Part shown: piece after piece, positions 1,638-17,075 of the stretch
Layout: each line of letters opens with the position of its first letter
How positions within the stretch are numbered: the stretch's first letter is position 1
Assembly: GCF_024169315.1 (NCBI RefSeq)
Contig: NZ_JALJWR010000001.1
Coordinates: 1,261,501-1,325,500, forward strand
From: Pseudomonas migulae
GTDB taxonomy: Bacteria; Pseudomonadota; Gammaproteobacteria; Pseudomonadales; Pseudomonadaceae
Direction: 5' to 3'
Length of the DNA stretch: 64,000 bases
Made by a program: the position numbers and the translations under genes
Notes under the pieces: generated by a model
The model's input: only the letters and a program-made list of their open reading frames with translations
Databases searched by the model: none
What the model was told of the DNA's origin: nothing

Positions 1638-2576
1638 TCACGTAGCCCGGCTCTGCGCGATGCGTTTTGCCAGATTGATAAAGTTACTCAGGACCGGCCC
1701 CTCCTCCTCCCCCCGACAGATCAGGGTAATCGGCGCGACCAGCCGTGGTCGGGCGTTGAGGCGGCAATACACCACGGACTCACGATGAAACCCGTTCATC
1801 GACGCCGGCACCACGGAAACGCCGGCACCGGCCGCCACCAGACTGATGTTGGTGAGCATTCGTTCGACTTCGAAAGCGATTTTCGGCGTGAAGCCTGCGT
1901 TCTCACAGGCCTCGATCAGCTTCGAATACATACCCGTGGCACCGCTGCGTCGCACGAGGATGAACGGCTCGTCCGCCAGGTGCTTGATCGATATGACGGG
2001 CATCGGCACCTCGCCATCCCCCTTCTGTTTACGCGAACGGCCCAACAGCGGATGCCCCACCGGCAGTACCAGCAACATGTCTTCTTCGAGCAACTGATAG
2101 AACGTCATGTCCTGCGGCTGGCCCACGGGGGCGCGAAGGATACCGATGTCGAGCTTGCGTTGAACCAGATCGTCGGTCAGCTCCCGGGCACTGCCTTCGT
2201 TCAGCAACAGGCTGACGCCCGGATACGCCTCGCGGTAGGCGCGAATGATGCTGGGGATCAACGGATGCGCGGCGGCCGAACTGGTGAAGCCGATCGACAG
2301 CGCGCCTTCGTAGCCCTGGGCCGCCTTGGCTGAACGCCGTGCAGCGTCTTCGACGCGATTGAGAATGTCCCGCGCCTCCTGCAGGAAAATCACCCCGCCG
2401 GGGGTCAGGTCAACGCCCTTGGGGTGACGCCGGAACAGGTCGAACCCCAACTCGCTTTCCAGCGCACGGATCTGCTGGCTGAGCGGCGGCTGCTGCATGT
2501 TCAGGCGGACGGCGGCCCGAGTGAAATGCTGCTCCTCGGCAACCATCAGGAAATAACGCAGGTGTCGGAGTTCCAT
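1638..2576 (-). CDS. LysR-family transcriptional regulator
   Basis: A 312-residue LysR-type regulator. Residues 1-60 form the winged helix-turn-helix (MELRHLRYFLMVAEEQHFTR, then the recognition-helix segment QQPPLSQQIRALE). A linker helix and a periplasmic-binding-protein-like effector domain (about 90-300) follow. The N-terminus resembles the BenM/CatM/HcaR branch. The start at 2576 is preferred to the longer in-frame start at 2639 because the HTH begins at residue 1, as in the family. It is divergent to the dicarboxylate-type symporter at 2750, so that transporter gene is its likely target. The effector is unknown; a carboxylate or aromatic acid would fit the neighbour. Confidence 0.9.
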   Translation of the reverse strand: MELRHLRYFLMVAEEQHFTRAAVRLNMQQPPLSQQIRALESELGFDLFRRHPKGVDLTPGGVIFLQEARDILNRVEDAARRSAKAAQGYEGALSIGFTSSAAAHPLIPSIIRAYREAYPGVSLLLNEGSARELTDDLVQRKLDIGILRAPVGQPQDMTFYQLLEEDMLLVLPVGHPLLGRSRKQKGDGEVPMPVISIKHLADEPFILVRRSGATGMYSKLIEACENAGFTPKIAFEVERMLTNISLVAAGAGVSVVPASMNGFHRESVVYCRLNARPRLVAPITLICRGEEEGPVLSNFINLAKRIAQSRAT

Positions 2577-2749
2577 AGGGCCCTGAACATGAAGGTAAGT
2601 AGGGAGGCGCAGTATAGGGGCGTGGATTGCACCCGACAAAACGACGCCGATGGCGGATAAAACTCGTTACACTGCACGCCATAAAAAAATCTGGCGCCGA
2701 ACCCCCTGCGGTCATTGGCGACCCGTGTCGCGAGGAGCCTCAACCCCCC
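2577..2749. promoter_or_regulatory. Divergent promoter region, lysR / symporter
   Basis: A 173-base gap between the oppositely oriented lysR and symporter genes. LysR regulators usually bind such gaps. I could not pick out a convincing T-N11-A box or a clear -35/-10 pair. A GAGGAG ribosome site for the symporter lies at 2732-2737, 12 bases before its ATG, which is rather long spacing. Confidence 0.5.
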
Positions 2750-3991
2750 ATGCATGGCCGTTTTTTCAACAGCAGCGTTATGCAGATGCTGGCCGCCATG
2801 CTTTTCGGCCTGGCGCTGGGGTATGCGCAACCGCACCTGGCGGTCATCCTCAAGCCCCTCGGTGACGGCTTCGTCAAACTGATCAGCATGAACATCTCCC
2901 TGGTGGTCTTCGTGCTGGTGGTGTCGGGTATCGCCAGCCTGCATGACCACCGCCAGTCCGCACGCATCGGCGGCAAGGTCGTGATCTACTTTGAAGTTCT
3001 CGCGCTGTTCTCCCTCCTGGCCGGAATGGCCGCGGCGCTGTGGCTGCAACCCGGTGCAGGTCTGGCAACGCTGGACACTGCAACAGCTCAGCACCTGCCA
3101 GGCAGCCTCCATGATTCGTTCAACGTCAGCGGATTTGTACTGAGCGTCATTCCCACCACGTTTGTCGATGCCTTCATGCAGGGTGGCAATACTCTGCAGG
3201 TGTTGTTTCTGGCCATTCTGTTCGGCATGGCCCTGGCACGCTGCGGTGAGGATGGCGCCCCGATACGCAAGGGCATCGATGTCCTCGCGCAGCTGATGTT
3301 CAACATCATGGCGATGATCCTGAAACTGGCGCCGCTGGCCGCTTTCGCCACGCTGGCCTACACCGTCGGCCGCTACGGCCTGTCGTCGATGCTGCCCTTG
3401 GCGAAACTGGTGTTGACCCTGTACCTGGCCAGCGCGCTGTTCATTGTGATCGTGTTCAGTTGCGTGACCCGGATCGCCGGGGTGCGTTTGTCGAGCCTGC
3501 TGCGCTACATCAAGGAAGAGTTGCTGGTGGTATTGCTCACCACCTCATCGATCGCCGCCCTGCCCTCGCTGATCGTCAAGATGGAACGCCTGGGTTGCGC
3601 ACACAGTATCGTGCGCCTGGTCCTGCCCGCCGGAAACGCGCTGAATCTCAACGGCACCAACATCTACCTGGCGGTGTGCGCCCTGTTTATCGCCCAGGCC
3701 GCGCACATCGACATGAACACCGGCCAGCTCATCACCTTCCTGATGATCGCCATGCTGACCTCCAAAGGGGCCAGTGCTGTGGCGGGTTCGTCGTTCATCA
3801 CCCTGGCAGTGACCCTCAGTGCCCTGCAGATCGTGCCGCTGGAGGGCGTCGCGTTGCTGTTGAGCATCGAGCGGCTGATGAAATGCCGCTCACTGACCAA
3901 CCTGATCGGCAACGCCGTGGCGTGCCTCGCCATTGCCCACTGGGAAAAAGCCATCGACCGGGAACGCTTGCAACAGGAACTGGGTCGCTGA
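2750..3991 (+). CDS. Dicarboxylate/amino acid:cation symporter (DAACS family), divergent cation site
   Basis: A 413-residue inner-membrane carrier of the SDF (GltP/DctA) family, with eight membrane helices and two re-entrant loops expected. Family landmarks are the HP1 serine motif as TTSSIAALP (264-272), the helix-7 motif as NLNGT (299-303), the HP2 segment LTSKGASAVAGS (336-347) and the C-terminal SLTNLIGN. Several key positions differ from E. coli DctA as I recall it: the serine motif has Ile where Glu is usual, NLDGT is NLNGT, and the IDRFMSEAR helix-8 segment is IERLMKCR, one residue shorter and with Asp to Glu. Coupling ion or substrate may therefore differ. The start at 2750 gives the normal family length. 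It is divergent to a LysR gene and converges on the HMW1C gene with 6 bases between them. Confidence 0.85.
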   Translation: MHGRFFNSSVMQMLAAMLFGLALGYAQPHLAVILKPLGDGFVKLISMNISLVVFVLVVSGIASLHDHRQSARIGGKVVIYFEVLALFSLLAGMAAALWLQPGAGLATLDTATAQHLPGSLHDSFNVSGFVLSVIPTTFVDAFMQGGNTLQVLFLAILFGMALARCGEDGAPIRKGIDVLAQLMFNIMAMILKLAPLAAFATLAYTVGRYGLSSMLPLAKLVLTLYLASALFIVIVFSCVTRIAGVRLSSLLRYIKEELLVVLLTTSSIAALPSLIVKMERLGCAHSIVRLVLPAGNALNLNGTNIYLAVCALFIAQAAHIDMNTGQLITFLMIAMLTSKGASAVAGSSFITLAVTLSALQIVPLEGVALLLSIERLMKCRSLTNLIGNAVACLAIAHWEKAIDRERLQQELGR

Positions 3992-3997
3992 AAAACC

Positions 3998-5839
3998 TCA
4001 ACCCAGCTCGTTGAGCAACGCCTCGCTCAACGCCTGCGGCCGCCCGGAAAACAGGGTGCGCAACGGCTCATCGGTGGCCAGATGCCGATACAACGCGGAC
4101 CGTTCTTCATGGCTGGAGGCCATGCGCACCGCCGCCTGAATGTAGGCTTCGCGGGTCGGCGCAATGGTCCATGACGGCAGCCCGACGCGCCGGAACAAGC
4201 CCTCGTCGATGTGCTCGAACACCTGCGGACCGGTCTTGCACACGCCCGGCAACCCCACCGTCAACGCGTCGATAATGCCGTTGGTATTACCGAACGGAAA
4301 CGGGCTGAGAAACAGGTCGCAGCGGTTGAGAATCGCCATGTAATCCTGATAAGGCTGGTGCGGATACACCGTGGCATCGCGCACGTAGCGTTCAATCAGG
4401 CGCACCAGTTGCGGGTACAACAAGCCCTGGGCCTGGCCAACGAGAAAGTGGAAATGCACGCGTTTCCCGGACTGATTCAAGGTCTGCACGGCGATGGCCT
4501 GGCAGCTCGCCAGAAAGCCCGGATTGAGTTTCATCGTGGTCGCCGCCACGGCGACATTGACCACCGGCCCGTCGTCGCGCGCCACGCGTGGCAGATTCAC
4601 CGCAAGCGCTGATGGGCGATAAGGCTGGCCATCGGCGGGCAAGCGCAGCAGCCGCTCGGTGAAACACTCCGGATCACCGACAAAATCATCCTCGACACTG
4701 ATGCAATCGATATGGCGTGAAGCGGTGGTCGCCGGGTGCCCGAGCGCCGCCACTTGCAGCGGCGCCATCCGTAGATTGCTGGCGAACAGCGTGATCTGGA
4801 ACATGCCGACGCTGGGCATGTAGAACACTTGTGCTTTTCGCGCCGCCGCGAGGTCACGCAACTGGCGCAGGCAGGCGAACAGATCGTCAGGCTCGGCGAA
4901 CTCGACAAACTCGTCGAATACCGCGCGTCCCAGGTCATCGACATTGGCCCCGTAGCCGACGCCCACCACGTGGAAATCACGCCGCGCCGCCTCCAGGGTG
5001 CGCGAGTGAGTGCGGTAGATCGAGTGCCCGCCGGAAAACCACTCCACCAGCACCAGCATCAACGGTTTTTGCGATGCGTTGTCGACCGCACCCCGGTGCA
5101 GCGGCAGTGGCTGGATGCCGACACTGTCCAGCTTGCGCTCGATCAGACGGTTGATCGATGCCTTGATCCGGTGCCGTTGCGGCAGGTCGGCATAACTGCA
5201 ATGCATGTACACGTCATGCAACACGCTGATCGGCAGCGCGTCGAGGCTGTCGAGCTGGTCCAGGCGATCGGGCAACCAGGCCAGTAACGCCTCGCGCTTG
5301 GAATGCGCGGCCGGCGTGCCGAGGAATCGCGGCGACAGCAGCGCCATGAACAGCGCGGCGGCCAGCGCCGGGTTACGCGCCCACAGCAACTCGACATCCA
5401 GCGGCAGCTCGGACTCCGGAGAGTAAAGGATGCAGAACTTCACCAGATCCTGTTCCGCGAGCCGGTAGTCGTTGGCGTCGTGCCCCAGCAGGTTCAACGA
5501 GCGCAGGATGTGGTCGCAATTGACGAAGGCGCTGGCCGCGAACAGCGACGACAGCCAGCGTTGCAGGTTGATCAATTGGCCGAAACCGTCGGGACTGATG
5601 CGAAACCCGGGGTCGGAAAACAGCGCCGTGATGGCGCTGGTCAGGCGCGTCAATACGTGATGTTCCAGCTCGCCGGCGGTAATCGCCGGCGACACGGACA
5701 AGGAGAATTGTTCGGACAATTTGCCGTAGTGGCGGTCGATCAGTTGCAGCAGCCGCACCAGATCCTGGGCAGCCGCCTCGTGATCATGGGTGTAACAGCG
5801 GTACTCGAACTGCTCGAGGGAAAACACTTGATCGGACAT
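3998..5839 (-). CDS. HMW1C-type cytoplasmic N-glycosyltransferase (GT41-like)
   Basis: A 613-residue protein that closely follows the HMW1C glycosyltransferases of Haemophilus and Actinobacillus (about 620 residues). These transfer hexose from UDP-hexose to Asn in N-X-S/T sequons of their adhesin in the cytoplasm. The all-alpha N-terminal domain spans about 1-240 and includes the family blocks FVNCDHIL and DVYMHCSY. The GT-B region follows with HSIYRTHS (272-279), LGHPATT (366-372), TTMKLNP (434-440) and FPFGNTNGIID (514-524). The His, Lys437 and Asp524 of these motifs match residues implicated in nucleotide-sugar binding. It is the last gene of the TpsB-TpsA-lyase series, 71 bases after the lyase stop, which points to the neighbouring TpsA as substrate. 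Start ATG at 5839. Confidence 0.93.
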   Translation of the reverse strand: MSDQVFSLEQFEYRCYTHDHEAAAQDLVRLLQLIDRHYGKLSEQFSLSVSPAITAGELEHHVLTRLTSAITALFSDPGFRISPDGFGQLINLQRWLSSLFAASAFVNCDHILRSLNLLGHDANDYRLAEQDLVKFCILYSPESELPLDVELLWARNPALAAALFMALLSPRFLGTPAAHSKREALLAWLPDRLDQLDSLDALPISVLHDVYMHCSYADLPQRHRIKASINRLIERKLDSVGIQPLPLHRGAVDNASQKPLMLVLVEWFSGGHSIYRTHSRTLEAARRDFHVVGVGYGANVDDLGRAVFDEFVEFAEPDDLFACLRQLRDLAAARKAQVFYMPSVGMFQITLFASNLRMAPLQVAALGHPATTASRHIDCISVEDDFVGDPECFTERLLRLPADGQPYRPSALAVNLPRVARDDGPVVNVAVAATTMKLNPGFLASCQAIAVQTLNQSGKRVHFHFLVGQAQGLLYPQLVRLIERYVRDATVYPHQPYQDYMAILNRCDLFLSPFPFGNTNGIIDALTVGLPGVCKTGPQVFEHIDEGLFRRVGLPSWTIAPTREAYIQAAVRMASSHEERSALYRHLATDEPLRTLFSGRPQALSEALLNELG

Positions 5840-5910
5840 AGCAAACGCCAGAGTGAGAATGGACTTCGACGATCATGGGCCCGATCGACACGGGTCAGGC
5901 CCATTACCCC

Positions 5911-7431
5911 TCAACGGCCCAATGCGTAAAACGTGCTGTCGAGGTGATTCTGCGCCTGCGCCAGCTTCTGCCGCTGCTGGGTCAGCCAGTCCTGATCACC
6001 CTTGAGGCGCAGTTTTTCCTCGGCCAGCATCCGCTCGACTTCGGCCCGCTGCGGTCCGCCCAGCCCTTTGCTGGCACTGACCATGTTCTGCGCCGTCAGG
6101 GCCTCGCGGAACCGGGCCTCGGTCAGCGGGAACTGTGCGCCTTGCAGGTTGAACGCTTCCAGCGCCTTGCCGTAGATCACCCGCACCTGATCGAACGGAA
6201 TGTCGGCCGGCTTGATCTTGTTCTGGCGCCCATAGGTGACCAGATCGGATGCGAAGTGATGGCCGACGCGGAACGGTACATCAGACTCGCGTTGCAGCGT
6301 ATCGGCCAGTTCGGTGGTGGTCGAGTAGTCCGCGTCGACTTCCTGCAAAGCGCGCTTCTTGTCGATGATCAGGTTGCCCAGCATATCGGTCATCAAGTCG
6401 AACGCCTGGGTGGTCTGATCAAGGGTTTTCTCGACCTGATCACGCTTGTAGTCCGGCATGCCCGACGAAACGTTATGGCCTTCGAACTCGAACGTGACCG
6501 CCCCGCCCACCACGTCGCTGGCTTGCAGGCGCAAGCGGTTGAGCACGTAGGGATTGCGCTTCTGCGGCATGATGCTGCTGGTTCCGGTCAGATGGCCTTC
6601 CTGGATCATGATCCACGGATAGGGCTGGTGATACTGGATGTGCATGTCCTGCACCAACAGGCCGATGGTCTGCGCGGCATTGCTGCACACGCCGGTCAGC
6701 TCCATGCCAGTGTCGAGGGCCGCCAGTTGCGTGGCGTCATAGGAGTTTTCAACCGGTGCGTCGAAACCCAGCAGGTCCGACAGGCGTTTGCGGTCCACCG
6801 GGAAACTCGACGTCCCGAGCGCCGCGCTGCCCAACGGGCTCAGGTTGAGGCGCGCATACGCCTGTTGCAGCCGTGTGGTGTCGCGCTCGAACACGGCGGT
6901 GAACCCCAGCAGGTAGTGGGCGTAAGTCGTCGGTTGCGCTTGCACGCCGTTGGTGTAGGCCGGGACGATGGTGTCGATATGGTTTTGCGCCAGATCGATG
7001 AACGCGGCCCGGGATTTGTTCATCGAGTCCAGCAGGTTCAGCGCGCGCTCGCGCTGCATCAGCCGGCGCGTGGTGGACAGGATGTCCTGGCGGCTACGGC
7101 CCGAATGCATGCGCGAACCATCGGGGCCGGCCAGTTTCAGAATCAGCGGCTCGTAGTCCAGGTAATCCGCCGGGCGCTCGGCGCCGGGCTTGTCGCCGTC
7201 CTTGATCACCTGATCGACCGCCGACACGATCTTCTTGCCCAGATCTTTTGGCACGATGTTGTTTTCGATGACCATCACCGTGGACGCCTTGTTCATTTCG
7301 CCCAGGTAGTAAAAATAGTCATGGACTTCTTTCTTCTCGGCAGCCTGGACGTTGCCCAGGGACATGCTCAGTGCCAGCGGCAACAGTGCGAAGTGGATCG
7401 CCAGGCGCAGCGGGGATTGGGAGTGGTTCAT
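5911..7431 (-). CDS. Exported argininosuccinate-lyase-like protein (fumarase/aspartase superfamily)
   Basis: A 506-residue protein with a signal peptide (hydrophobic 9-25, AxA-type cleavage near 30) followed by an argininosuccinate-lyase-like core. Visible superfamily motifs are SGRSRQD (110-116), the His-Thr region as AYTNGVQAQPTT (158-169) and the signature loop GTSSIMPQKRNP (283-294) with the catalytic-type Ser. In ArgH the second motif reads YTHLQRAQP; here Asn161 replaces the conserved His, so ordinary argininosuccinate cleavage is doubtful. Export of a lyase of this superfamily is also unusual. The ATG at 7431 lies 8 bases after the tpsA stop and gives a clean signal peptide. It sits between tpsA and the HMW1C gene, so it probably acts on or beside the adhesin in the periplasm. 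The reaction is unknown. Confidence 0.8.
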   Translation of the reverse strand: MNHSQSPLRLAIHFALLPLALSMSLGNVQAAEKKEVHDYFYYLGEMNKASTVMVIENNIVPKDLGKKIVSAVDQVIKDGDKPGAERPADYLDYEPLILKLAGPDGSRMHSGRSRQDILSTTRRLMQRERALNLLDSMNKSRAAFIDLAQNHIDTIVPAYTNGVQAQPTTYAHYLLGFTAVFERDTTRLQQAYARLNLSPLGSAALGTSSFPVDRKRLSDLLGFDAPVENSYDATQLAALDTGMELTGVCSNAAQTIGLLVQDMHIQYHQPYPWIMIQEGHLTGTSSIMPQKRNPYVLNRLRLQASDVVGGAVTFEFEGHNVSSGMPDYKRDQVEKTLDQTTQAFDLMTDMLGNLIIDKKRALQEVDADYSTTTELADTLQRESDVPFRVGHHFASDLVTYGRQNKIKPADIPFDQVRVIYGKALEAFNLQGAQFPLTEARFREALTAQNMVSASKGLGGPQRAEVERMLAEEKLRLKGDQDWLTQQRQKLAQAQNHLDSTFYALGR

Positions 7432-7439
7432 TGGGGTGG

Positions 7440-10400
7440 TTACTCTCGCTCGGTTTGACTGGAAGAACGGGGACCCGACGTGCCAGCGGCAGCGACGGTG
7501 GACCATGGCGCGACCTTGATGTCCACCTGGTCGGCAACGCTGCCCATGGCGGTGAGGTGGTAATCGGGTGTCAGGGGTTGGCTCCAGGCGCTGTTCGCCA
7601 TCTGCATGTGCAGGTACTGGGTGGTCGGTGCGATTGCGCTGTCGAACAGGCTGCTGTTGATCAGTCCGCCCCGTGAAATCACCACGGCGCCGTCACCGCT
7701 GGCCGACAGGCTGGTGGTGTCATCAGTGTGGGTGATGAATTGGCCGGTTGGCGTGTCGACATCCACCAGCAACAAACCGTCAACGACCTGCAGGCTGTTA
7801 TTGCCGTCGTCGAAGCTCAAGGCCGCCCCGCCGGCACTTCTGCCGATCAGGGTCAGGTTGCCGTCGCCGCCCGTGGTCACGCGGTTGTAGCCGTTGGCAT
7901 TGGAAGCGCTGAACGCAATCCCGTCGCCGCTGCCTTGCGCGGTGCCCACCAGGCGAATGTCGCCGCTGTCGGAAACAATCCTTACTCCGTTGCCCGGCCC
8001 CGAGGCGCCGCTGCGAATGCTCAGGCCGGCCTCGGACGAGGTGGCGGCGCTGGTGCCGGTCAGGGACAGATCGCCGCTGACGGTCGACAGCGTCAGCGAA
8101 CTGCTATTGCCCGACGGATAAATATTGAGGCCGACGCCGCCCCGGGATTGTCCCTCGAGGGTGACCGAGCCGGTGCCCGTGGCCTGGATCACGTTTTGCC
8201 CGGTCAGCAGACCAATGCCGTCGCCCGCGCCGCTGCTGCCATTGATGCTCAACGCACCGTTTTCAACGCTGAGCTGCGCCTTGCCGTTGCCGTAGATCTC
8301 GATCCCGCTGCCGAAATCGGTGGCATTGCCGATCAGGGTCAGGTTGCCGTCACCGCTGGTTTTCAGGATGTTGTTGACGGCAAGGATGGCGATACCGTGG
8401 TCCAGCTCGGCGCTGTTGGGCGAGTGGAAGTTGCCGATCAGGGTGATGTCGCCGCCCTGGGAGGTGATGCGGTTGCTGGAAACGCCGTTGCCGGTGCTGC
8501 CGCCCAGGGCGATGGCATCCGAGGTGCCCACTGAATCGCCGCGCAAGGTGATGTTGCCGGAATCGCTGGCGACGTTGACGCCTCTGGAATTGCCCGTGGA
8601 GTTGAAGAAAATCCCATAGCCACCGGAGGCCGTCGTGCTGTTGCCGCTGATGTTGATGTCACCGCTGGTGGTCGACAGGTCAATGGCGGCGTTGGCGCCC
8701 GACGGCGCAATATCGACGCCGCGCCCGGAAACGCTGGTGCCATCCAGCGTCAGGTTGCCGCTGCGGGTCGCGACACGAATCGTCGAATAATCACCGCTGG
8801 CGTCCAGCGACAATGCCTTGAACGAGCCGCTCGCAGTGCTCACGGTGTTGTGGTTGGCCTTGAGCAGGACATCACCGCCGGTGCTGGCGATGTTGATCCC
8901 CGCGCCGGGTGTCGCGGCGGTGCCGCTGCCCGATGCGATCAGTGCCAAAGCCGGTGTGGTGCCGCCTTCGGTGGTCCCGGTCAGGGTGATGTCGCCGTCG
9001 GTAGCGAGGTTGATCGATGAGGTGGCACCGGTCGAATTGAGGATCGTGCCGTAGCTGCCGTTGCTATGGCCGTTCAGCACAATGTCACCGCCCTGTGCCG
9101 AACCCAGGTTGACGGCGCCATCGCCCGAAGCGGCCAGGTACACACCCCTGCCGGTGTCGCTATTGCCCTGCACCGTGAGCCTTCCGGTGCCGACCGTCAG
9201 GCTCTGCGAAGACGACGCCGCCGTCGCGCAGACCAGCACGCCATAGCCGGAAGCCGCCGTGCCGCGCAGTGTCACATCGCCGGAACCGGTGGCGGCGATG
9301 CTGTTGTTGGTGCTGAAGATCCGTGTCGCGTTGCCGCTGCCCAGGTTGGTACTGTCGACCGTGATCGATCCGATGCCCGTGGTCAGCAAACTGCTGCCTG
9401 CGGTCAGGACGAAGGCGTCGCCGGTCCCGCTGGTGCTCGCTTGCAGCGCGGTGATGCTGATGTTGCCGCCACCGGCGTCGATGCTGCTGCCACGGATGTT
9501 CACCGCCGTTGCCGTGGAACCTGCCGCCAGGGTGGCGGACGTGGCGCCGCGCAGGACGACGTTGCCTCCGCTGGTGGTGATGCGCGTGCCGTTGCTCAGG
9601 GAAATGCCGTTGCCGTTGCTGACGTTGGTGCTGGCGTAAGACTGGTTCGGCTGCACCGCGCCGCTGATGGTCAGGTTGCCGCCGTTGGTGCTGAGGGTCG
9701 CATTGCTCAGCGCCACCGAGCCGTTGCCGCTGTTGTTGAAGTTCGAGTACAGCGACACGTTGAGGGTCTTGCCCGTACCGTTGCTGATGCTGGTGTTGGT
9801 CATCACGATGTTGCGGTGAGCCTGCAACGTCAGGGTCGCGTTGCCGACCCCGCGGACGTTGTCCAGCACGTTGATGTCGCCGGAAGTCCCGCCCACCGAG
9901 GTCGTTTGTACAATGACGTTCGCCCCTTCGGACAACGACGCGTTGAGCACTGCCGAGCTGAGGTTGGAACTGCTGGCGCCACTGGACGTGAACGGACTGG
10001 TGCTGGTGGCGCCGCCGGCACTGGCGGGCGCGGTGATGTTGATGTTGAACGGGTCAATCAGCCAGGTACCGCCCTGGCCCGACACCGCGCTGAGGTCGAC
10101 GATACCGGTGACATCCAGCGCGTGCCCTGAGGTTTCCACCAACCCGCCCCGCCCCTGTCTGCCGGCACCTTTGACGCTGATGCCGCCGTGGAACTGCGTG
10201 CTGTCCAGCGACCAGAGAATGACTTTGCCGCCATTGCCGTTGCTCAAGGCATCGGCGCTGATGCGCGCATCGCGGCCCATGTAGGTGGACGTTGCCTGGT
10301 GAACGCCGTTGCTGCCCTGATAGTCGCCACCCAGCAGCACGGTGCCGCCCGCGACATCGCCGTCGGCATTGATTCGGCCACTGTCGAACAGACCGACATA

Positions 10401-11345
10401 CTCCCCGGTCATGCTAACGTTGCCGCCGCGCTCGCCACTGTTGCGCCCGGACACGTCGAGGGTACCGCTGTTGGCCACCACGCCGTGACTGCCGCCATCG
10501 AGCACGATGCGACCGTTGCGTTGCTGCAGGCTGCGCGCTTCGATCACCCCCTCGTTGTTCACCACATTGCTGAGCATCGCCTGGGAATCCCGCGCGCTGA
10601 GCGCCACCAGGCCACCGTTGGCTTGCAATAGCCCGCGGTTGACCACGCTGGCGCCCACCGCCGGGTCGTTGACTTCGAGGTTGATCAAGCCGTCGCCGTT
10701 GAGGTCGAGGGTGATCTTCTCGCCGCCACCCAGCACGACCGAGCCCAGTCGGGCGACCACGGTGCCTTCATTGCGCACCTGGGCACCGAGCAGCGCGACG
10801 CTGCCGCCGTCTCCCGCCGTGATCACCCCTTGGTTGATGACCGCGCCCTGGCTTTTGCCGGAGAACACGTTGCGCCCGGCGAGAAAATCGCTGTTGGAAA
10901 TATCCAGCGAACTGGCCACCAGCCCGCCAACGTTGACCATCGAGCCCGCACCAAACAACACCCCGGACGGGTTGATCAGAAACACCTGACCGTTGGCGTT
11001 CAACTGGCCGAGAATCTGCGAGCCGTCGCTGCCGGTCACCCGATTCAGGGCGACCGATGAACTGCCCGGCTGGTGAAAATTGACCTGGGCGCCACTGCCG
11101 ATATTGAAGGTGTTCCAGTTGATGATCGCCCGGTCGCTGCCCTGATTCACGGTCATCACGTTGCCGTTGCTGTTGACGGTGGCGCTACCGGCAACCACCT
11201 GGCCGTTGGTGGGCAGCGCGTTGCTGTCCAGTGCCAGCGCCGGCAGCGGCGCAAGGCTGTAAATCACACAGAGCACGGCATGGCTGAGGGGTTTGAGACG
11301 CGGTAGCGCCTGGCGACTGATGCGGTGGGTTCGAACGTTGCTCAC
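7440..11345 (-). CDS. TpsA exoprotein, HMW1/filamentous-haemagglutinin-like adhesin
   Basis: A 1301-residue secreted beta-helical protein of a two-partner secretion system. A long signal peptide runs to about residue 38 (cleavage near ALA). The TPS domain (about 40-290) follows with NQGSDRAIINWNTFNIG (67-83), SSVALNRVTG and FLINPSGVLFGAG (122-134), where NPSG replaces the usual NPNG. The rest is Gly/Ser/Thr/Asn-rich with many short repeats of the type 'GDGNLTLIG'. I count about 30 N-X-S/T sequons, almost all after residue 430, which fits modification by the co-encoded HMW1C enzyme. The start is a GTG at 11345 with AGGAG six to seven bases upstream, 10 bases after the tpsB stop. The C-terminus ends in a Ser-rich tail rather than an obvious anchor. 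Confidence 0.92.
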   Translation of the reverse strand: MSNVRTHRISRQALPRLKPLSHAVLCVIYSLAPLPALALDSNALPTNGQVVAGSATVNSNGNVMTVNQGSDRAIINWNTFNIGSGAQVNFHQPGSSSVALNRVTGSDGSQILGQLNANGQVFLINPSGVLFGAGSMVNVGGLVASSLDISNSDFLAGRNVFSGKSQGAVINQGVITAGDGGSVALLGAQVRNEGTVVARLGSVVLGGGEKITLDLNGDGLINLEVNDPAVGASVVNRGLLQANGGLVALSARDSQAMLSNVVNNEGVIEARSLQQRNGRIVLDGGSHGVVANSGTLDVSGRNSGERGGNVSMTGEYVGLFDSGRINADGDVAGGTVLLGGDYQGSNGVHQATSTYMGRDARISADALSNGNGGKVILWSLDSTQFHGGISVKGAGRQGRGGLVETSGHALDVTGIVDLSAVSGQGGTWLIDPFNINITAPASAGGATSTSPFTSSGASSSNLSSAVLNASLSEGANVIVQTTSVGGTSGDINVLDNVRGVGNATLTLQAHRNIVMTNTSISNGTGKTLNVSLYSNFNNSGNGSVALSNATLSTNGGNLTISGAVQPNQSYASTNVSNGNGISLSNGTRITTSGGNVVLRGATSATLAAGSTATAVNIRGSSIDAGGGNISITALQASTSGTGDAFVLTAGSSLLTTGIGSITVDSTNLGSGNATRIFSTNNSIAATGSGDVTLRGTAASGYGVLVCATAASSSQSLTVGTGRLTVQGNSDTGRGVYLAASGDGAVNLGSAQGGDIVLNGHSNGSYGTILNSTGATSSINLATDGDITLTGTTEGGTTPALALIASGSGTAATPGAGINIASTGGDVLLKANHNTVSTASGSFKALSLDASGDYSTIRVATRSGNLTLDGTSVSGRGVDIAPSGANAAIDLSTTSGDINISGNSTTASGGYGIFFNSTGNSRGVNVASDSGNITLRGDSVGTSDAIALGGSTGNGVSSNRITSQGGDITLIGNFHSPNSAELDHGIAILAVNNILKTSGDGNLTLIGNATDFGSGIEIYGNGKAQLSVENGALSINGSSGAGDGIGLLTGQNVIQATGTGSVTLEGQSRGGVGLNIYPSGNSSSLTLSTVSGDLSLTGTSAATSSEAGLSIRSGASGPGNGVRIVSDSGDIRLVGTAQGSGDGIAFSASNANGYNRVTTGGDGNLTLIGRSAGGAALSFDDGNNSLQVVDGLLLVDVDTPTGQFITHTDDTTSLSASGDGAVVISRGGLINSSLFDSAIAPTTQYLHMQMANSAWSQPLTPDYHLTAMGSVADQVDIKVAPWSTVAAAGTSGPRSSSQTERE

Positions 11346-11355
11346 AGCCTTCTCC

Positions 11356-14300
11356 TCAGAACGAATAGTTGATGCCAGTGCCGATGGCGCTGATGGTGGT
11401 GCCGGCGCCCGGTGCGTAGCCGCTGGCGGCGTAAACGCCGGTCAGCGCGAAGTTGTAGTTGGCCAGGGACTGGTTTTTCAGGATCACGTACTGACCGAAC
11501 AGGTCGGTGTTTTTGGTCAGCTTGTACGTAGCACCCACGGCGTACTGAGTGGCACCCATGCCGTGGGTGTCGCAGTCGATAGCCCGGGCAGCGATCATCG
11601 AGCACTCGCCCGGCAGCGCCTGGGCGTAACTGGCCCGCAACTGCCAGGCGCCGATGTTGTGCGTGACGCCGAGCAGATAGGCACGGCGGCGATATTTCGA
11701 CAGGTCGCTGGAGGTGGTGCTGTTGTTGATCACGCCGTCTTCGGAATAGGACAAGTCATCGGCAATGGCCGACAGCTTGGTGTCGCCGAAGTCATAGGCC
11801 AGGCCGTAACGCACACTGAAATCATCCGAAGACGTGCCGTCAGTGACGTGGGTGGTGCTGCCGACGCCCCGGGCATTGCGTCCCAGCGAGGCGACGCCGA
11901 AATAATCGACGTGCCGTTCGGCAGCGACCACCGCGGTAAAGCCTCCATGGGTGTAGGTCAGGCTGCCGCCGTAGATATAGCCGTTGCCGACGTCTTCGGC
12001 TGAGCGGGTGCCGTTGTTGGAATACGCCAGTTTCAGTTGCAGGCCGTACCACTCCGGCGTCCAGTACTGCACGACGCCAGCCTGACGCCGGTTGAACGCG
12101 GCGTCATCGTTGTTCGATTCCTCGGCGGTGCCGGACGGCCCGTTGACGTTGGTGGCCAGGCTGGTGCTGAAGCCGGGCGAACCGATGATGTTGTAATACG
12201 CCGCACTGGTCTTGCCGTGGAACGGATCAAGACTGGTGGTGGCTTCTTTCATTGGCATGTCCCAGATGCCATACAGCAACGTACCGTACTGCCCGTTGTT
12301 GAACGCCGCGCCGGAGTTGCGCAGCTTGGTGCTCGGCGACGCCGACTGCACCACCGAAGGGTCGTCGCTGGCGGTGTAGTTGAGGGAAATGCCGTACTCG
12401 AGTTGCCACAACAGGTTCCAGTCATCGGTCAGCGCATAACCGCCATGTCCACCGACGTAGGAGACGTTGTCACGGGCCCGCCAGAAACTGGCCATGTTGC
12501 GTCCGTTGGGGGTGGCCAGTCGGCTCTGGTTGGCCGGCGCCGCGGCGGTCGCGCCGTGACGGTCGACGTATTCGGGGACGATGCCCAGTGAGCCGTAGAA
12601 CACGGTCTGGGTTTCGGGCACTTCGAAATCCTCGCCCTTGGAACCCAGGTCGCTGGCCAACCCGGCGAATGCCTGAGGCGAACCGGAGATCGAGAACCAC
12701 AGGCGCCGCGCCGCGCGATCGTCGCTGGTGGGGTTGTCGCCGGGCGAAAACGCCAGGCTGGCGTTCATCACCAGCTCGCGGTGATACAGGTTCACCCCCA
12801 CGCCGTAGCCATAGCGGGTCAGGTCATTTTCGCTGTTGTCCCAGGGGTTCTTGTTGACGCGCACCTTGCCGCCGTCGGCGAACAATGCGCCCTCGGCAAT
12901 CGCGCCGTGAAACGTGCCCAGGTATTTGCGCAATTCCACACGCCCCAGAATCCCCTCGTCCCCCGCCGCTTCGCCGACCGGATAGGCGCGCACGCCATTG
13001 GGTCCGCCGAGGCTGAGTTTTTCCGAGGAATCGAGGTTCTTGTCGGCCCATTGCCCGGCGATCGAGCCGTACAGCGAATAGCCGTAACCCAACGTCTGCA
13101 AACGACTGAACGAGGCGTTGGTTTTCTTGTAGGTGCCCGCGGCTTTTGCGGTGAAATCGTCCAGCGCTGCATCAGCAGCGGTGTTCTTGTCCAGGTCGCC
13201 GACACCGAAGGCCAGGCTCCACAGGTTGCTGCCCTGCCAACCGTCCCGCCAGTTGCCATACAGCGCGGCACTGCGAAACACCGCCGATTTTTTCACGGCA
13301 AAATCGCCGGCTTCGTCCTCGAAATGCCGGTGCTCTTCGGACAGGTTGAGACTGATGTTGGTGTCCCGCGAGCGCAGCAGCGAGCTGTTGAGGAATACCG
13401 AAGACACCTTGGCCGTGCCGTCGGCGTTGACCGCCTTGAGGTTCTTGCCGATCGCGTATTCCAGCTCAGCGTAATTGGCACCAATGGAAATCCCGCTGGC
13501 GCCCAAGGGTTGCTGAAAGCCAACCCCCTTGATCTCCAGCCCTTCGAATGAGTTCTGCGAGTTGACGGTAAAGGTTTCGCCGAAGCCGAACGCATCGTTG
13601 AGGCTGACGCTGGAGGTCAGCCGATTGGAACCGGTGAAGTAGTTGCCGTAGTTGTCGATGGCCGCTCGGGCAGTGAAGGCCGTCATCTCGTTGAGCTCGA
13701 GGACAATGTCCGCAGCACCCGGCTGTTGCGACGGCCGCAAGATCGCGCGCACCGCGACACCGGCGATGTCCGACAGGCGCAGCAGCACCCGCTCCAGGTC
13801 CTGTTCGCGAATGATCGTGCCCGGTTGCAAGGCATCGACGAAACGTTGCTGCATGCCGGGGCGCAAACGCACGTTCGGCCCTGGCATCGCGACGACCGTG
13901 CCGATCACGCCTTCCTGAATGCCAATGGTGACCTGGCCATCCTGGATTTCCTGGGCCGGCAGATACGCCCGGGCCACCAGATAACCGCGGGCCCGGTACA
14001 ACTCGGTGATCTGCGCCGCCGCTTCGCGCAGGCCGTTGAGGTCCAGGACCCGTCGGGTATAAGGCTTGAGTTGCTCTTGCAACCGGGTGTCGCTGATTTC
14101 ATGGTTGCCGCTGAAGGTGAAGCCTTTGACCTCAAGCTTTATCGATGAAGCCGTCGCATCGGCGCGGGGCTCGGGCTCGGCGTCCTGGCTGTCGATGCGC
14201 ACGCTGCCAGGGGCTGCGGGCTGCACGCTTTCGGTCGGCCGCAGGGCCTCGCGGTTGCTATCGAACAGGGTGCCGGCGGACGGCAACGTATCGGCCTGGA

Positions 14301-14391
14301 CCTGCGCAGCCATCAAGGCCGCCGCCAGGAACGTCAGGCGGCCAGGCCCGAAGGCTCGGGACGCCCGGGTAAACAGATCGTGTTTGTTCAT
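11356..14391 (-). CDS. TpsB two-partner secretion transporter fused to a C-terminal porin-like barrel
   Basis: A 1011-residue outer-membrane protein, nearly double the usual TpsB length of about 560-590. A signal peptide (to about 33) and Pro-rich linker lead into a POTRA-2-type domain (about 84-165, with KGFTFSGNHEIS) and a FhaC/HMW1B-type barrel. The barrel includes the tip motif SLGGPNGVRAYP (460-471) and ends near RRLWFSISGS (562-571). After a short linker, residues about 593-1011 read as a complete second barrel of the Burkholderia/OmpC-like Porin_4 kind (FNRRQAGVVQYWTPEW, NTDLFGQYVILKN) with the terminal Phe of outer-membrane proteins (GINYSF). There is no stop or frame change between the halves. 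It lies upstream of tpsA with 10 bases between them, so TpsA is the expected cargo. Confidence 0.9.
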   Translation of the reverse strand: MNKHDLFTRASRAFGPGRLTFLAAALMAAQVQADTLPSAGTLFDSNREALRPTESVQPAAPGSVRIDSQDAEPEPRADATASSIKLEVKGFTFSGNHEISDTRLQEQLKPYTRRVLDLNGLREAAAQITELYRARGYLVARAYLPAQEIQDGQVTIGIQEGVIGTVVAMPGPNVRLRPGMQQRFVDALQPGTIIREQDLERVLLRLSDIAGVAVRAILRPSQQPGAADIVLELNEMTAFTARAAIDNYGNYFTGSNRLTSSVSLNDAFGFGETFTVNSQNSFEGLEIKGVGFQQPLGASGISIGANYAELEYAIGKNLKAVNADGTAKVSSVFLNSSLLRSRDTNISLNLSEEHRHFEDEAGDFAVKKSAVFRSAALYGNWRDGWQGSNLWSLAFGVGDLDKNTAADAALDDFTAKAAGTYKKTNASFSRLQTLGYGYSLYGSIAGQWADKNLDSSEKLSLGGPNGVRAYPVGEAAGDEGILGRVELRKYLGTFHGAIAEGALFADGGKVRVNKNPWDNSENDLTRYGYGVGVNLYHRELVMNASLAFSPGDNPTSDDRAARRLWFSISGSPQAFAGLASDLGSKGEDFEVPETQTVFYGSLGIVPEYVDRHGATAAAPANQSRLATPNGRNMASFWRARDNVSYVGGHGGYALTDDWNLLWQLEYGISLNYTASDDPSVVQSASPSTKLRNSGAAFNNGQYGTLLYGIWDMPMKEATTSLDPFHGKTSAAYYNIIGSPGFSTSLATNVNGPSGTAEESNNDDAAFNRRQAGVVQYWTPEWYGLQLKLAYSNNGTRSAEDVGNGYIYGGSLTYTHGGFTAVVAAERHVDYFGVASLGRNARGVGSTTHVTDGTSSDDFSVRYGLAYDFGDTKLSAIADDLSYSEDGVINNSTTSSDLSKYRRRAYLLGVTHNIGAWQLRASYAQALPGECSMIAARAIDCDTHGMGATQYAVGATYKLTKNTDLFGQYVILKNQSLANYNFALTGVYAASGYAPGAGTTISAIGTGINYSF

Positions 14392-14463
14392 ACATCGCTC
14401 TTATTATTTTTATCGAGGACGTGAGTGTCCCGCCGCACAGCGGTGACGCATCAGCGTGCGTAC

Positions 14464-15546
14464 TCAGGGGAAAATGATTCGGGCGACCTGTTCGTCACTG
14501 AACATTTGCGCTGCGCTGTGCCCCAGCCCCCGGATCAAGTGCTGTGGGTGATTGACCGGCGTCTGCCATTTTTTGCCGAGGAAGCGTTCGTAAGCGATGT
14601 AGACGAGTTGGCGTTCAACCCGTGTCTGGCCCTGGAAATTGGCGCCGCAGGAACTGTCCATCACCCGGCTGTTGGGGTTGTTGTCCTTTGCACCGACCAG
14701 ATAGGTCACGTCACGCGCGGCGTAACGGGCAAACAGTTGCTGCGGCGACAGTTGCTGCGTCTGCACATACGCCGGGGCACCTTCCAGACCATAGCGATAG
14801 CGGCCATAGCTGGGGCATATCACGGTGGTCACCGGTGAGAACCCGCCGACCTGCAGGCGGTTGTCATCGAAATACAAGTAGCTCGATGGACTGGCGATGA
14901 TGTACCGAATGTGCAGGCCACTGGATTTCAGCCCGGCATCGAGGTGATTGACCACCGCGTAGCGCTGCATCAGTTGTGCGCCGGCCGAATGGCTGACCAT
15001 GACGATTTCTTTCAGGGCGGGGAAACGCTGGCGGTCAGACAGGTAGGCGACGAGGTCGTCCAGTACCTGGAAACCGGGAATACCGGTGCGGCCTGACTGC
15101 GATTCGAGGCCATGCATCCATTTGTCACGAGGCCACAGGGGCATGTCGTCAGCGACGTCGGGATCGGTCGGTGTCAGGAAGTTGGGGGCCAGCAACAGCG
15201 TCTGGTCGTCCGAAAGCCCGGCCTTGTCCAGCAGCTTGCGACCGGTTTCGAAGTAGCGGTCGGCATCACGCTGCACGCCGTGCAGGATCACCACGGCACG
15301 CTCGATGTGCTTGAGTGGCTGATACAGATCGGCGTTGGCGTAGACCCGGAAAGGATAGGCTTCCACGTCGCGGCCCAGACGCAATGTCTGGAATCTTTCG
15401 TCGACGCGCTTGCCCGCCACTTCGCCCTGGGCTTCGGAGACGGACGAAGAGGTGATCGCCCCGACCAGGGCCACCGTGCCCAGCACCGAGGCCATGGACT
15501 TTGTAAAGGTGAACGAGGCTTGCAGGCTTTTGAAAATACAGAACAT
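14464..15546 (-). CDS. Exported alpha/beta-hydrolase-like protein, first gene of the TPS locus
   Basis: A 360-residue protein with an N-terminal hydrophobic segment (about 10-32) that looks like a signal peptide or anchor. An alpha/beta-hydrolase core follows: VVILHG (85-90) is the oxyanion-loop region, VSHSAGA (184-190) holds the nucleophile elbow with Ser187, and RGLGHSA near the C-terminus is a candidate for the catalytic His. The start at 15546 is set by AGAGGG five bases upstream; a longer in-frame reading has no ribosome site. It precedes tpsB by 72 bases on the same strand with no terminator visible, so it is probably the first gene of the adhesin operon. The substrate is unknown; an esterase acting on cell-surface polymers or on the adhesin is only a guess. 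Confidence 0.75.
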   Translation of the reverse strand: MFCIFKSLQASFTFTKSMASVLGTVALVGAITSSSVSEAQGEVAGKRVDERFQTLRLGRDVEAYPFRVYANADLYQPLKHIERAVVILHGVQRDADRYFETGRKLLDKAGLSDDQTLLLAPNFLTPTDPDVADDMPLWPRDKWMHGLESQSGRTGIPGFQVLDDLVAYLSDRQRFPALKEIVMVSHSAGAQLMQRYAVVNHLDAGLKSSGLHIRYIIASPSSYLYFDDNRLQVGGFSPVTTVICPSYGRYRYGLEGAPAYVQTQQLSPQQLFARYAARDVTYLVGAKDNNPNSRVMDSSCGANFQGQTRVERQLVYIAYERFLGKKWQTPVNHPQHLIRGLGHSAAQMFSDEQVARIIFP

Positions 15547-15799
15547 GGCACCCTCTACGCTGATACTCCGAACGGTGTGGCATCGACTCGATGCCACTGT
15601 CCTTTCGTTGTGCGGCTGTTCGGAAACAGGATGGGCATGTGTTCGCGTCAAAGCGTTTTACGCCCCACCGACGGTGGGACCGCGAGGCCGCGAAGCCAGG
15701 CTCTTCTCTTGTTTTTTGCGAATCCTAACAGCGAGGGTGACCAATGAAAAATACGTTAAAAATCGATCTCGATACTTTAAAAATATCGAGATTGACCTG
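15547..15799. promoter_or_regulatory. Intergenic region: aceF-like terminator-like repeat and likely promoter of the TPS locus
   Basis: A 253-base gap on the minus strand between the E2 gene and the hydrolase gene. A perfect 9-base inverted repeat, ATCTCGATA (15766-15774) and TATCGAGAT (15784-15792), starts 8 bases past the E2 stop; it is followed by GATTTTTAA on the minus strand and could end the aceEF-like transcript or bind a regulator. A second dyad, CCCACCG / CGGTGGG (15664-15678), has a single central base and is more likely a protein site. The promoter of the five-gene adhesin locus must lie in this stretch, but no confident -35/-10 pair was found. Confidence 0.5.
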
Positions 15800-17035
15800 T
15801 TACAACACCAGCCGACGGTAGTCCGCCAGGACACTGCCCAGATAGGCGTTGAAACGACCCGCGGCGGCGCCATCGATCACACGATGATCCCAACTCAGGC
15901 TCAACGGCAGCATGTGGCGCGTGACCACCTGCCCACCCTCCAGCGCGAGTCGCTCCCGGCTTTTGCCCACCCCCAGGATGGCGACTTCAGGCGCATTGAT
16001 GATCGGCGTGAAATACGTCCCGCCAATGCCGCCCAGGGACGAGATGGAAAAGCAGCCCCCACTCATCTCCGCAACGCTCAACTTGCCCTCCCGTGCCTTT
16101 TCAGCCAGCGCCGACATTTCCCGGGCAATCGCCAGCACACCTTTTTGATCGACGTCCTTGATGACAGGAACGACCAACCCTTGCGGCGTATCGGCGGCAA
16201 AGCCGATGTGGCAATAACGCTTCAACACCAGTTCGTCCCCCTTGAGGCTGGCATTGAACTCCGGGAATTTTTTCAGGGCGGCTGCGCAGGCTTTCATCAA
16301 CAAGGCCAGCAACGTCAGCTTGACCCCGCTCTCTGCCTTTTCCTTGTTCACCTGCACGCGGAACTGTTCGAGCTGCGTGATATCCGCATCGTCATGATTG
16401 GTCACGTGGGGAATCATGACCCAGTTGCGATGCAGGTTGGCCCCGCTGATTTTGCGGATGCGCGAAAGTGCCCGGGTTTCCACCGGCCCGTATTGGGCAA
16501 AATCAACCACCGGCCAGGGCAGCAAGCCAGCCAACGGCCGGGCACTGGGTTCAGCTGCCGTGAGCGCGCCTTTCACATGGGCCGACACGTCCTCTTTGGT
16601 GATGCGATTGCGCAGCCCCGTCCCCTGAATGGCCATGAGCGAAACACCGAGCTCTCGAGAAAACTTGCGGACCGAGGGCGAGGCCAGCGGCAAGTGCGTC
16701 GGCGGGGCAACCACTTCGATGGGCGACGGTGCCTGCCGAGGTTCTGTGAGCGCTGCAACGGGTTCGATGATGGGAGCAGGTGCCGGTGAGCGCCCTTCAC
16801 TTTCGATCAAGGCGATCGGCGATCCTTCGCTGACCTTGTCGTCCAGCCCGACCGTCAACGAGTGCAATACGCCCGTCGTTGGCGATGGAATTTCCATGGA
16901 CGCCTTGTCTGTCTCGACAATGATCAAGGTCTGCCCTTCGAGCACCGCATCGCCGGCCTTGACCAGTATTTCTATGACACCGACGTCCTTGGCATCGCCA
17001 ATGTCGGGCATTCGCACTTCATGCACATTCTTCAT
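15800..17035 (-). CDS. Dihydrolipoamide acetyltransferase (E2), single-lipoyl form
   Basis: A 411-residue E2 component of a 2-oxoacid dehydrogenase complex, transferring the acyl group from lipoamide to CoA. One lipoyl domain (about 1-75) carries the modified Lys in VETDKAS. A Pro/Ala-rich linker follows, then a peripheral-subunit-binding domain (SPSVRKFSRELGV, about 120-155) and the catalytic domain ending with SLSWDHRVIDG, the conserved His-Asp active site. Having one lipoyl domain makes it shorter than the main pseudomonad AceF. The ATG at 17035 has AGGA upstream and removes an unlikely N-terminal extension. It follows the E1 gene by 40 bases. No E3 gene is near, so a shared lipoamide dehydrogenase is implied. 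Confidence 0.9.
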   Translation of the reverse strand: MKNVHEVRMPDIGDAKDVGVIEILVKAGDAVLEGQTLIIVETDKASMEIPSPTTGVLHSLTVGLDDKVSEGSPIALIESEGRSPAPAPIIEPVAALTEPRQAPSPIEVVAPPTHLPLASPSVRKFSRELGVSLMAIQGTGLRNRITKEDVSAHVKGALTAAEPSARPLAGLLPWPVVDFAQYGPVETRALSRIRKISGANLHRNWVMIPHVTNHDDADITQLEQFRVQVNKEKAESGVKLTLLALLMKACAAALKKFPEFNASLKGDELVLKRYCHIGFAADTPQGLVVPVIKDVDQKGVLAIAREMSALAEKAREGKLSVAEMSGGCFSISSLGGIGGTYFTPIINAPEVAILGVGKSRERLALEGGQVVTRHMLPLSLSWDHRVIDGAAAGRFNAYLGSVLADYRRLVL

Positions 17036-17075
17036 ACGCGTTTCCTGAACATTCGACTCGAACTGAAGCACGGCT

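Follow-up and report, generated by a model that had tools for sequence, protein, structure and literature searches.

The window analysed here is a 64,000-nucleotide stretch of the Pseudomonas migulae genome (assembly GCF_024169315.1, contig NZ_JALJWR010000001.1, positions 1,261,501 to 1,325,500; the host genome is a single contig of 6.54 Mb), and within it lies a two-partner secretion (TPS) locus of five closely spaced genes on the minus strand. In order, they encode a predicted exported α/β hydrolase that resembles PahZ1 and LpqC and is a candidate polymer depolymerase (15546..14464 from an ATG start, 360 residues), the transporter TpsB (14391..11356, 1011 residues), an EtpA-like TpsA exoprotein with a TPS domain and N-X-S/T enrichment (11345..7440, 1301 residues), a predicted exported lyase of the fumarase/argininosuccinate lyase superfamily (7431..5911 from an ATG start, 506 residues), and an HMW1C-type protein N-glycosyltransferase (5839..3998, 613 residues), with intergenic gaps of 72, 10, 8, and 71 bp. 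A sequence-only reading of this stretch had proposed an HMW1ABC-like TPS system of five same-strand genes with two additional exported enzymes that process the adhesin or its glycans. Coordinates, gaps, and Pfam domains agree with the gene arrangement, as do the domain and structure matches with an HMW1ABC/EtpBAC-like TPS system that includes an HMW1C enzyme. Export signals were judged from simple hydropathy, which places AXA-like sites after hydrophobic N-termini in both the hydrolase and the lyase, in line with two exported enzymes, and also in TpsB and TpsA; it gives no hydrophobic export-type stretch at the HMW1C N-terminus. Three elements had been overlooked: a porin domain at the end of TpsB, a convergent symporter gene, and a divergent LysR-type gene.

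Pfam assigns to TpsB the domains POTRA_2 and ShlB, followed at its end by Porin_4. The first part of the protein (12676..14391, minus strand, residues 1–572) comprises the signal region, POTRA, and 16 predicted strands, i.e. the POTRA and FhaC-type barrel of a TPS partner. The second (11356..12609, minus strand, residues 595–1011) is a full-length barrel whose fold fits an Omp32-type porin, and the intervening linker (about residues 573–594) is of low confidence. The canonical TpsB layout, which consists of POTRA and one barrel with nothing more and is not a defining feature of TPS, is thus exceeded by a second barrel; on sequence and structure prediction, TpsB is a two-barrel protein in which a TpsB transporter precedes an Omp32-type porin. 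Omp32 of Comamonas acidovorans is an anion-selective porin that has also been solved with malate; the porin domain described here shares 20% identity with it and, unlike Omp32, sits in one chain with a TpsB transporter. A covalent link between the porin and TpsB is present in 72 database proteins, of which one is partial, and the fusion points to uptake.

Scanning with the porin domain yielded 33 loci, and the main comparison covered 32, namely the window, L022–L051, and L107. All 32 contain the hydrolase, TpsB, porin, and TpsA. The lyase is visible in 26 loci, being part of the operon in 18 and lying upstream in divergent orientation in 8; HMW1C is likewise visible in 26, and the SDF symporter in 21, that of L024 being only 33% alike and perhaps unrelated. 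Of these 21 loci, 17 have a divergent LysR gene next to the symporter gene, and three of the remaining four break off at the symporter gene or shortly beyond it. The divergent lyases come from records named P. sediminis, P. chengduensis, P. composti, P. wayambapalatensis, P. daroniae, P. entomophila, and Stutzerimonas stutzeri and from a short contig named Bowmanella, and six of these eight loci also show the symporter. The Bowmanella record (L030, a 6.7 kb contig filed as Bowmanella yangjiangensis) holds a partial locus resembling that of P. sediminis (L028) and is possibly contamination. Four Herbaspirillum loci do not show HMW1C, and each of their genomes holds a 53–54% HMW1C elsewhere (4/4; L122–L125), around which no TPS gene was matched within the fetched 11–20 kb; the other two loci without HMW1C in view end at a contig end.

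Records named Pseudomonas, Stutzerimonas, Herbaspirillum, and Polaromonas carry these genes together, and their order is kept across genera. The hydrolase and lyase do co-occur with TpsA and HMW1C, as the sequence-only reading required, and this recurrence across genera is beyond chance. Among 199 sampled Pseudomonas genomes, a strong lyase match (E of 3e-124 or better, the next match being 6e-60) is present in 5/5 with the fusion versus 18/194 without (Fisher p = 1.4e-5). In the G203 (Herbaspirillum) family (195 genomes, E ≤ 1e-90) the counts are 4/4 versus 18/191 (p = 1.3e-4). Both tests ignore the relatedness of the genomes, and some genomes are shared between counts: judged by contig coordinates, G037, G044, G048, and G140 seem to be those of L029, L047, L048, and L023, respectively. 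Among 369 genomes of the class, the lyase is found at E ≤ 1e-90 in one, the window's own. Co-occurrence of the genes across genomes makes it unlikely that they are unrelated neighbours.

The TPS domain of TpsA is matched by PF05860 (135.7 bits, cut-off 33.5) and TIGR01901 (82.9 bits, cut-off 29.1), and the nearest solved relative is EtpA (8vba, 3e-81). The glycosyltransferase matches HMW1C_N (PF18071, 106.5 bits) and HMw1_D2 (PF18254, 94.2 bits), both over cut-off, and Glyco_trans_1_4 under its cut-off, and it aligns over its full length with solved HMW1C-like enzymes (8p0q, 4.8e-168, residues 7–610; 3q3e, 6.9e-168). Its score of 675.8 bits against a cut-off of 1000 for the NF049992 equivalog (UDP-glucose:protein N-β-glucosyltransferase) assigns it to that family but not to that equivalog. 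In the TpsA proteins of 28 loci, N-X-S/T occurs at a mean of 1.50 times the shuffled expectation (range 1.16–1.90), compared, for five control motifs, with 1.24 for the reversed motif, 1.12 for D-X-S/T, 0.99 for N-X-X-S/T, 0.91 for G-X-S/T, and 0.68 for N-S/T; six of 34 TpsA stand outside this set, L027, L030, and L040 having partial or doubtful frames and L052–L054 being counted apart. Toxin delivery of the contact-dependent inhibition type was considered and rejected: TpsA aligns to at least residue 1254 of 1301 in 28 of the 30 loci L022–L051, the other two being cut by contig ends, and the TPS domain is its sole Pfam domain above cut-off, which together make a variable toxin tip unlikely. 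The L022 TpsA frame (11217–17372) encodes 2051 residues, with the region matching residues 551–1173 of the window's TpsA present twice.

Pfam matches to the hydrolase are restricted to Abhydrolase_6 and Hydrolase_4, both under cut-off, and NCBIfam returned no match for it. At the sequence level it matches poly(aspartic acid) hydrolase-1 (9o7u, 3e-6), and a Foldseek search with its model (predicted local distance difference test, pLDDT, 84.9) returned PahZ1 (6ve6, 9e-16) and the polyhydroxybutyrate (PHB) depolymerase LpqC (1.5e-14), with the next fold class about five orders of magnitude behind (4e-9). Comparison with the PahZ1 fold (6ve6/9o7u) gave a probability of 1.00, a template modelling score by target of 0.78, and a root-mean-square deviation of 5.4. 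The modelled hydrolase has the PahZ1/PHB-depolymerase fold; PahZ1 and LpqC are its best fold matches, yet identity is 16–20% and the deviation about 5. Alignment inspection identified a candidate triad of Ser187, Asp288, and His343, and relatives keep the candidate Ser/Asp/His set. Poly(β-malate) has the same backbone as β-poly(aspartate), with an ester bond in place of the amide. PahZ1 is described as cleaving β-amide bonds and as related to PHB depolymerases (PMC4456602), and bacteria that use poly(β-malate) as a carbon source are on record (PMC9210645). A lipobox Cys ends the hydrolase signal region in 13 of the 32 loci by a crude pattern, about 10 of these appearing genuine by eye; the position is Ser in the window and Cys in L022. 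A short second hydrolase-like gene adjoins the divergent lyase in L028 (4433–5020) and likewise in L031, L032, L033, and L036, the L028 copy being truncated and lacking the catalytic serine. In L112 (10946–12025) a 32% hydrolase relative is divergent to a 46% lyase, beside LysR and TonB-receptor genes and with no TPS in view.

The lyase combines Lyase_1 and ASL_C2 domains with the SSIMPQKxN loop, which by the presence of Lyase_1 and the SSxMPxKxN signature places it in the fumarase/aspartase superfamily; together with its N-terminus, this identifies it as a predicted exported member. Assignment as a true ArgH was rejected, since it misses the argH equivalog cut-off (234.8 versus 279.5). The nearest solved lyases, 6rx8 (2e-49) and 6g3d (1e-48), are both filed as argininosuccinate lyase, and we take them to be ethylenediaminedisuccinate (EDDS) lyase. 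Asn161, at what is presumably the position of the conserved histidine of argininosuccinate lyase (TH.Q), is invariant in 26/26 aligned rows and is a glutamine in 6rx8 and 6g3d. The superfamily, loop, and ASL_C2 are common to the lyase, argininosuccinate lyase, and (on the same assumption) EDDS lyase; in contrast to argininosuccinate lyase, the enzyme here is apparently exported, scores under the argH cut-off, and carries Asn161. Lyases named Pseudomonas moorei and Pseudomonas sp. dw_612 share 91% identity with that of the window. In a tree of 60 rows, in which some long branches were flagged and the midpoint root serves display only, a fully supported split separates the 18 in-operon lyases, together with those of L108 and L109, from seven divergent lyases, which fall in a supported group with the lyases of 20 Pseudomonas loci that show no TPS genes. 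One TPS module is thus associated with two lineages of the lyase.

These 20 loci hold a 42–46% lyase, and within about 20 kb no TPS genes, HMW1C, or hydrolase were found at 50 bits or more. A convergent SDF symporter, 39–44% identical to the window's, is present in 15, with a LysR-cluster gene adjoining it in 14 of the 15 by eye. In 13 of the 20, a cluster-7 gene, two members of which were identified as OprD porins, lies directly upstream of the lyase on the same strand; in L065 OprD is present, though not adjacent to the lyase. Two of these genomes (G048 and G140) hold the fusion elsewhere. In the OprD-type loci, porin, exported lyase, SDF symporter, and LysR protein thus make up a unit that lacks a TPS, and in the window the domain fused to TpsB may take the porin role. 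These relationships bear on the proposal that the locus encodes a glycosylated HMW1ABC-like adhesin whose protein or glycans the two exported enzymes process in the periplasm. The EtpA-like TpsA, HMW1C, the sequon enrichment, and gaps of 8–72 bp are all consistent with it. The hydrolase and lyase families, however, act on acyl or succinyl bonds and are not known to act on glycosidic ones, relatives of the lyase adjoin a porin and an SDF symporter where neither TPS genes nor HMW1C are in view, and the fused porin and symporter are left unexplained. With a PahZ1-like hydrolase and a porin that points to uptake, this part of the sequence-only reading is not supported, and we consider such processing very improbable.

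Convergent with the operon and 6 bp from hmw1c lies the SDF symporter gene (2627..3991, plus strand; PF00375). Its best NCBIfam match is the DctA subfamily (PRK01663; 449.1 bits, below the cut-off of 513), and because DctA is the nearest family but its cut-off is missed, we call the product DctA-like. The LysR-type regulator gene (1638..2639, minus strand) is divergent from it, and the true starts of both genes probably lie downstream of the listed first TTG. Upstream of the hydrolase gene is an operator-like dyad, ATA[CT]-N7-[GA]TAT (15772..15786, minus strand), similar to ATAC-N7-GTAT, which we take to be a LysR-family site. Across the window to 24 kb and L022–L051, the loci from which the consensus was also drawn, the dyad has 39 matches in 31/31 hydrolase-type loci, one to three per locus, all near the hydrolase start and none elsewhere in those loci, compared with 1 match per 638 kb of shuffled DNA; in L029, L034, and L048 the longest hydrolase open frame begins before it. 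In many loci the dyad is followed about 20 bp downstream, by eye, by GATATTTT[AT]CATAG or a similar sequence. A terminator-like hairpin (15792–15766) overlaps the dyad. An operator is favoured over a terminator because the element recurs before the hydrolase of relatives with other upstream genes, and in the window the hairpin could also end the upstream transcript. A search for a motif shared by the lysR–sdf gap and the hydrolase upstream region gave one weak 13-mer only, and a sigma-70 scan gave 2 sites versus 4.0 expected.

The set of genes bears on a further possibility, metal acquisition, in which TpsA would capture an aminopolycarboxylate chelate of the EDDS or aspergillomarasmine type, the porin would admit it, and the lyase would release the metal by destroying the chelator, a scheme analogous to HxuABC. 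In favour of such a role, the closest solved lyases (6rx8 and 6g3d) are presumed EDDS lyases, and HxuA is an example of a TpsA used in nutrient acquisition (PMC5422565). Against it, the conserved set showed neither a TonB receptor nor a metal transporter but an SDF symporter and a PahZ1-like hydrolase instead, and we regard metal acquisition as quite improbable.

The fusion also occurs in a second type of locus. In Polaromonas L052–L054, a dienelactone-hydrolase-type gene and one for a gamma-glutamyltranspeptidase (GGT) come after the fusion and TpsA, and a second dienelactone-hydrolase-type gene precedes the fusion (Pfam identification was made on L053 only). In L149, one more genome of that family, the transpeptidase directly follows TpsA. 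The dyad is absent from L052–L054, whose own loci are without HMW1C, the neighbouring first-type locus on the same contig having one, and their TpsA proteins give 0.95 for N-X-S/T, 1.32 for the reversed motif, and 1.40 for D-X-S/T. These loci indicate that one fusion is paired with different degradative enzymes.

Overall, the findings speak for a system that takes up and catabolises a C4-dicarboxylate polyanion and is based on a glycosylated TPS system. We hold with modest confidence that a two-partner secretion system has here been turned into a nutrient-acquisition machine for an acidic C4 polyanion. In the proposed mechanism, HMW1C would glycosylate TpsA in the cytoplasm and the TpsB barrel would export it; TpsA would stay on the surface and bind an acidic polymer or oligomer, which the hydrolase would cut. 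Fragments could then enter via the porin tethered to TpsB, the periplasmic lyase would β-eliminate fumarate from N- or O-substituted succinyl ends, the symporter would import the C4-dicarboxylate, and the LysR protein may control the operon through the dyad. As for the substrate, a β-linked C4 polyanion such as poly(β-malate) or β-poly(aspartate) is our leading suggestion, a tentative and rather doubtful one; its identity is a guess with two good candidates.

Several observations weigh against this uptake reading. In 6/32 loci (L023–L027 and L048) the TPS genes have no adjoining lyase gene, although all six genomes, two of which are G048 and G140, hold a 44–45% lyase elsewhere. The L108 and L109 lyases (71–72%) fall inside the in-operon group yet are without TPS. 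The lyase sequence alone does not give its substrate; nor do the loci of lyase relatives (39–72%) in the G203 family reveal it, since no common neighbours were found in the part scanned (20 neighbours of 8/14 loci). OprD-type lyase loci are without a hydrolase match, which leaves room for a non-polymeric lyase substrate. The dyad occurs in only 4/20 OprD-type loci (three near the OprD start and one near the lyase start, two with 4 mismatches), and the window has no copy between lysR and sdf. The reversed sequon motif is also somewhat enriched (1.24 over the 28 loci), and the window's TpsA alone is modest, with 32 sequons versus 24 expected. The fusion model is of moderate quality (pLDDT 70, predicted template modelling score 0.51), so how the two barrels relate is not given by it. 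Finally, a Comamonas polymalate hydrolase is reported to be without serine-esterase activity (PMC9210645), unlike the serine-type hydrolase here.

The lyase found elsewhere in six loci is also compatible with co-regulated neighbours, i.e. an adhesin that attaches the cell near a source of acidic polymer and, sharing its operon, a separate uptake and catabolism set, with TpsA binding no substrate and the fused porin a convenient general pore. Such a role would accord with the first characterised TPS systems, which secreted cytolysins or adhesins (PMC5422565). The covalent joining of porin to TpsB in the 72 database proteins, and the pairing of the fusion with GGT as a second exported enzyme type, argue against it, and we judge this explanation unlikely. 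Returning to uptake, the system would represent a hitherto undescribed kind, in which one outer-membrane protein exports a glycosylated capture protein while its second barrel imports fragments for periplasmic cleavage to fumarate, and which would form a modular class, the GGT version perhaps serving another acidic polyamide; the chance of this falls somewhat short of even. If so, HMW1C-type glycosylation would gain a role in nutrition, and the system might offer a Proteobacterial parallel, by loose analogy, to the Sus systems of Bacteroidetes. The proposed reading also suggests a function for exported proteins named 'argininosuccinate lyase' in databases and yields a short list of testable substrates.

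Among known systems, EtpBAC of enterotoxigenic Escherichia coli combines TpsB, TpsA, and an HMW1C-type glycosyltransferase in one locus, as does the locus described here. The same gene content is given for hmw1ABC of Haemophilus influenzae, and the best-known TPS systems are adhesins, cytolysins, and contact-dependent toxins (PMC5422565). HxuABC, which obtains heme from hemopexin, uses a TpsA to capture the nutrient and has a dedicated route for its entry across the outer membrane (PMC5422565). Entry in HxuABC is through a separate TonB-dependent receptor, whereas here a porin lies in the TpsB chain and degradative enzymes accompany it. In contrast to EtpBAC and HMW1ABC, the present set, found in Pseudomonas, Stutzerimonas, Herbaspirillum, and Polaromonas records, has a TpsB with a fused porin and adds a hydrolase, a lyase, a DctA-like symporter, and a LysR protein.

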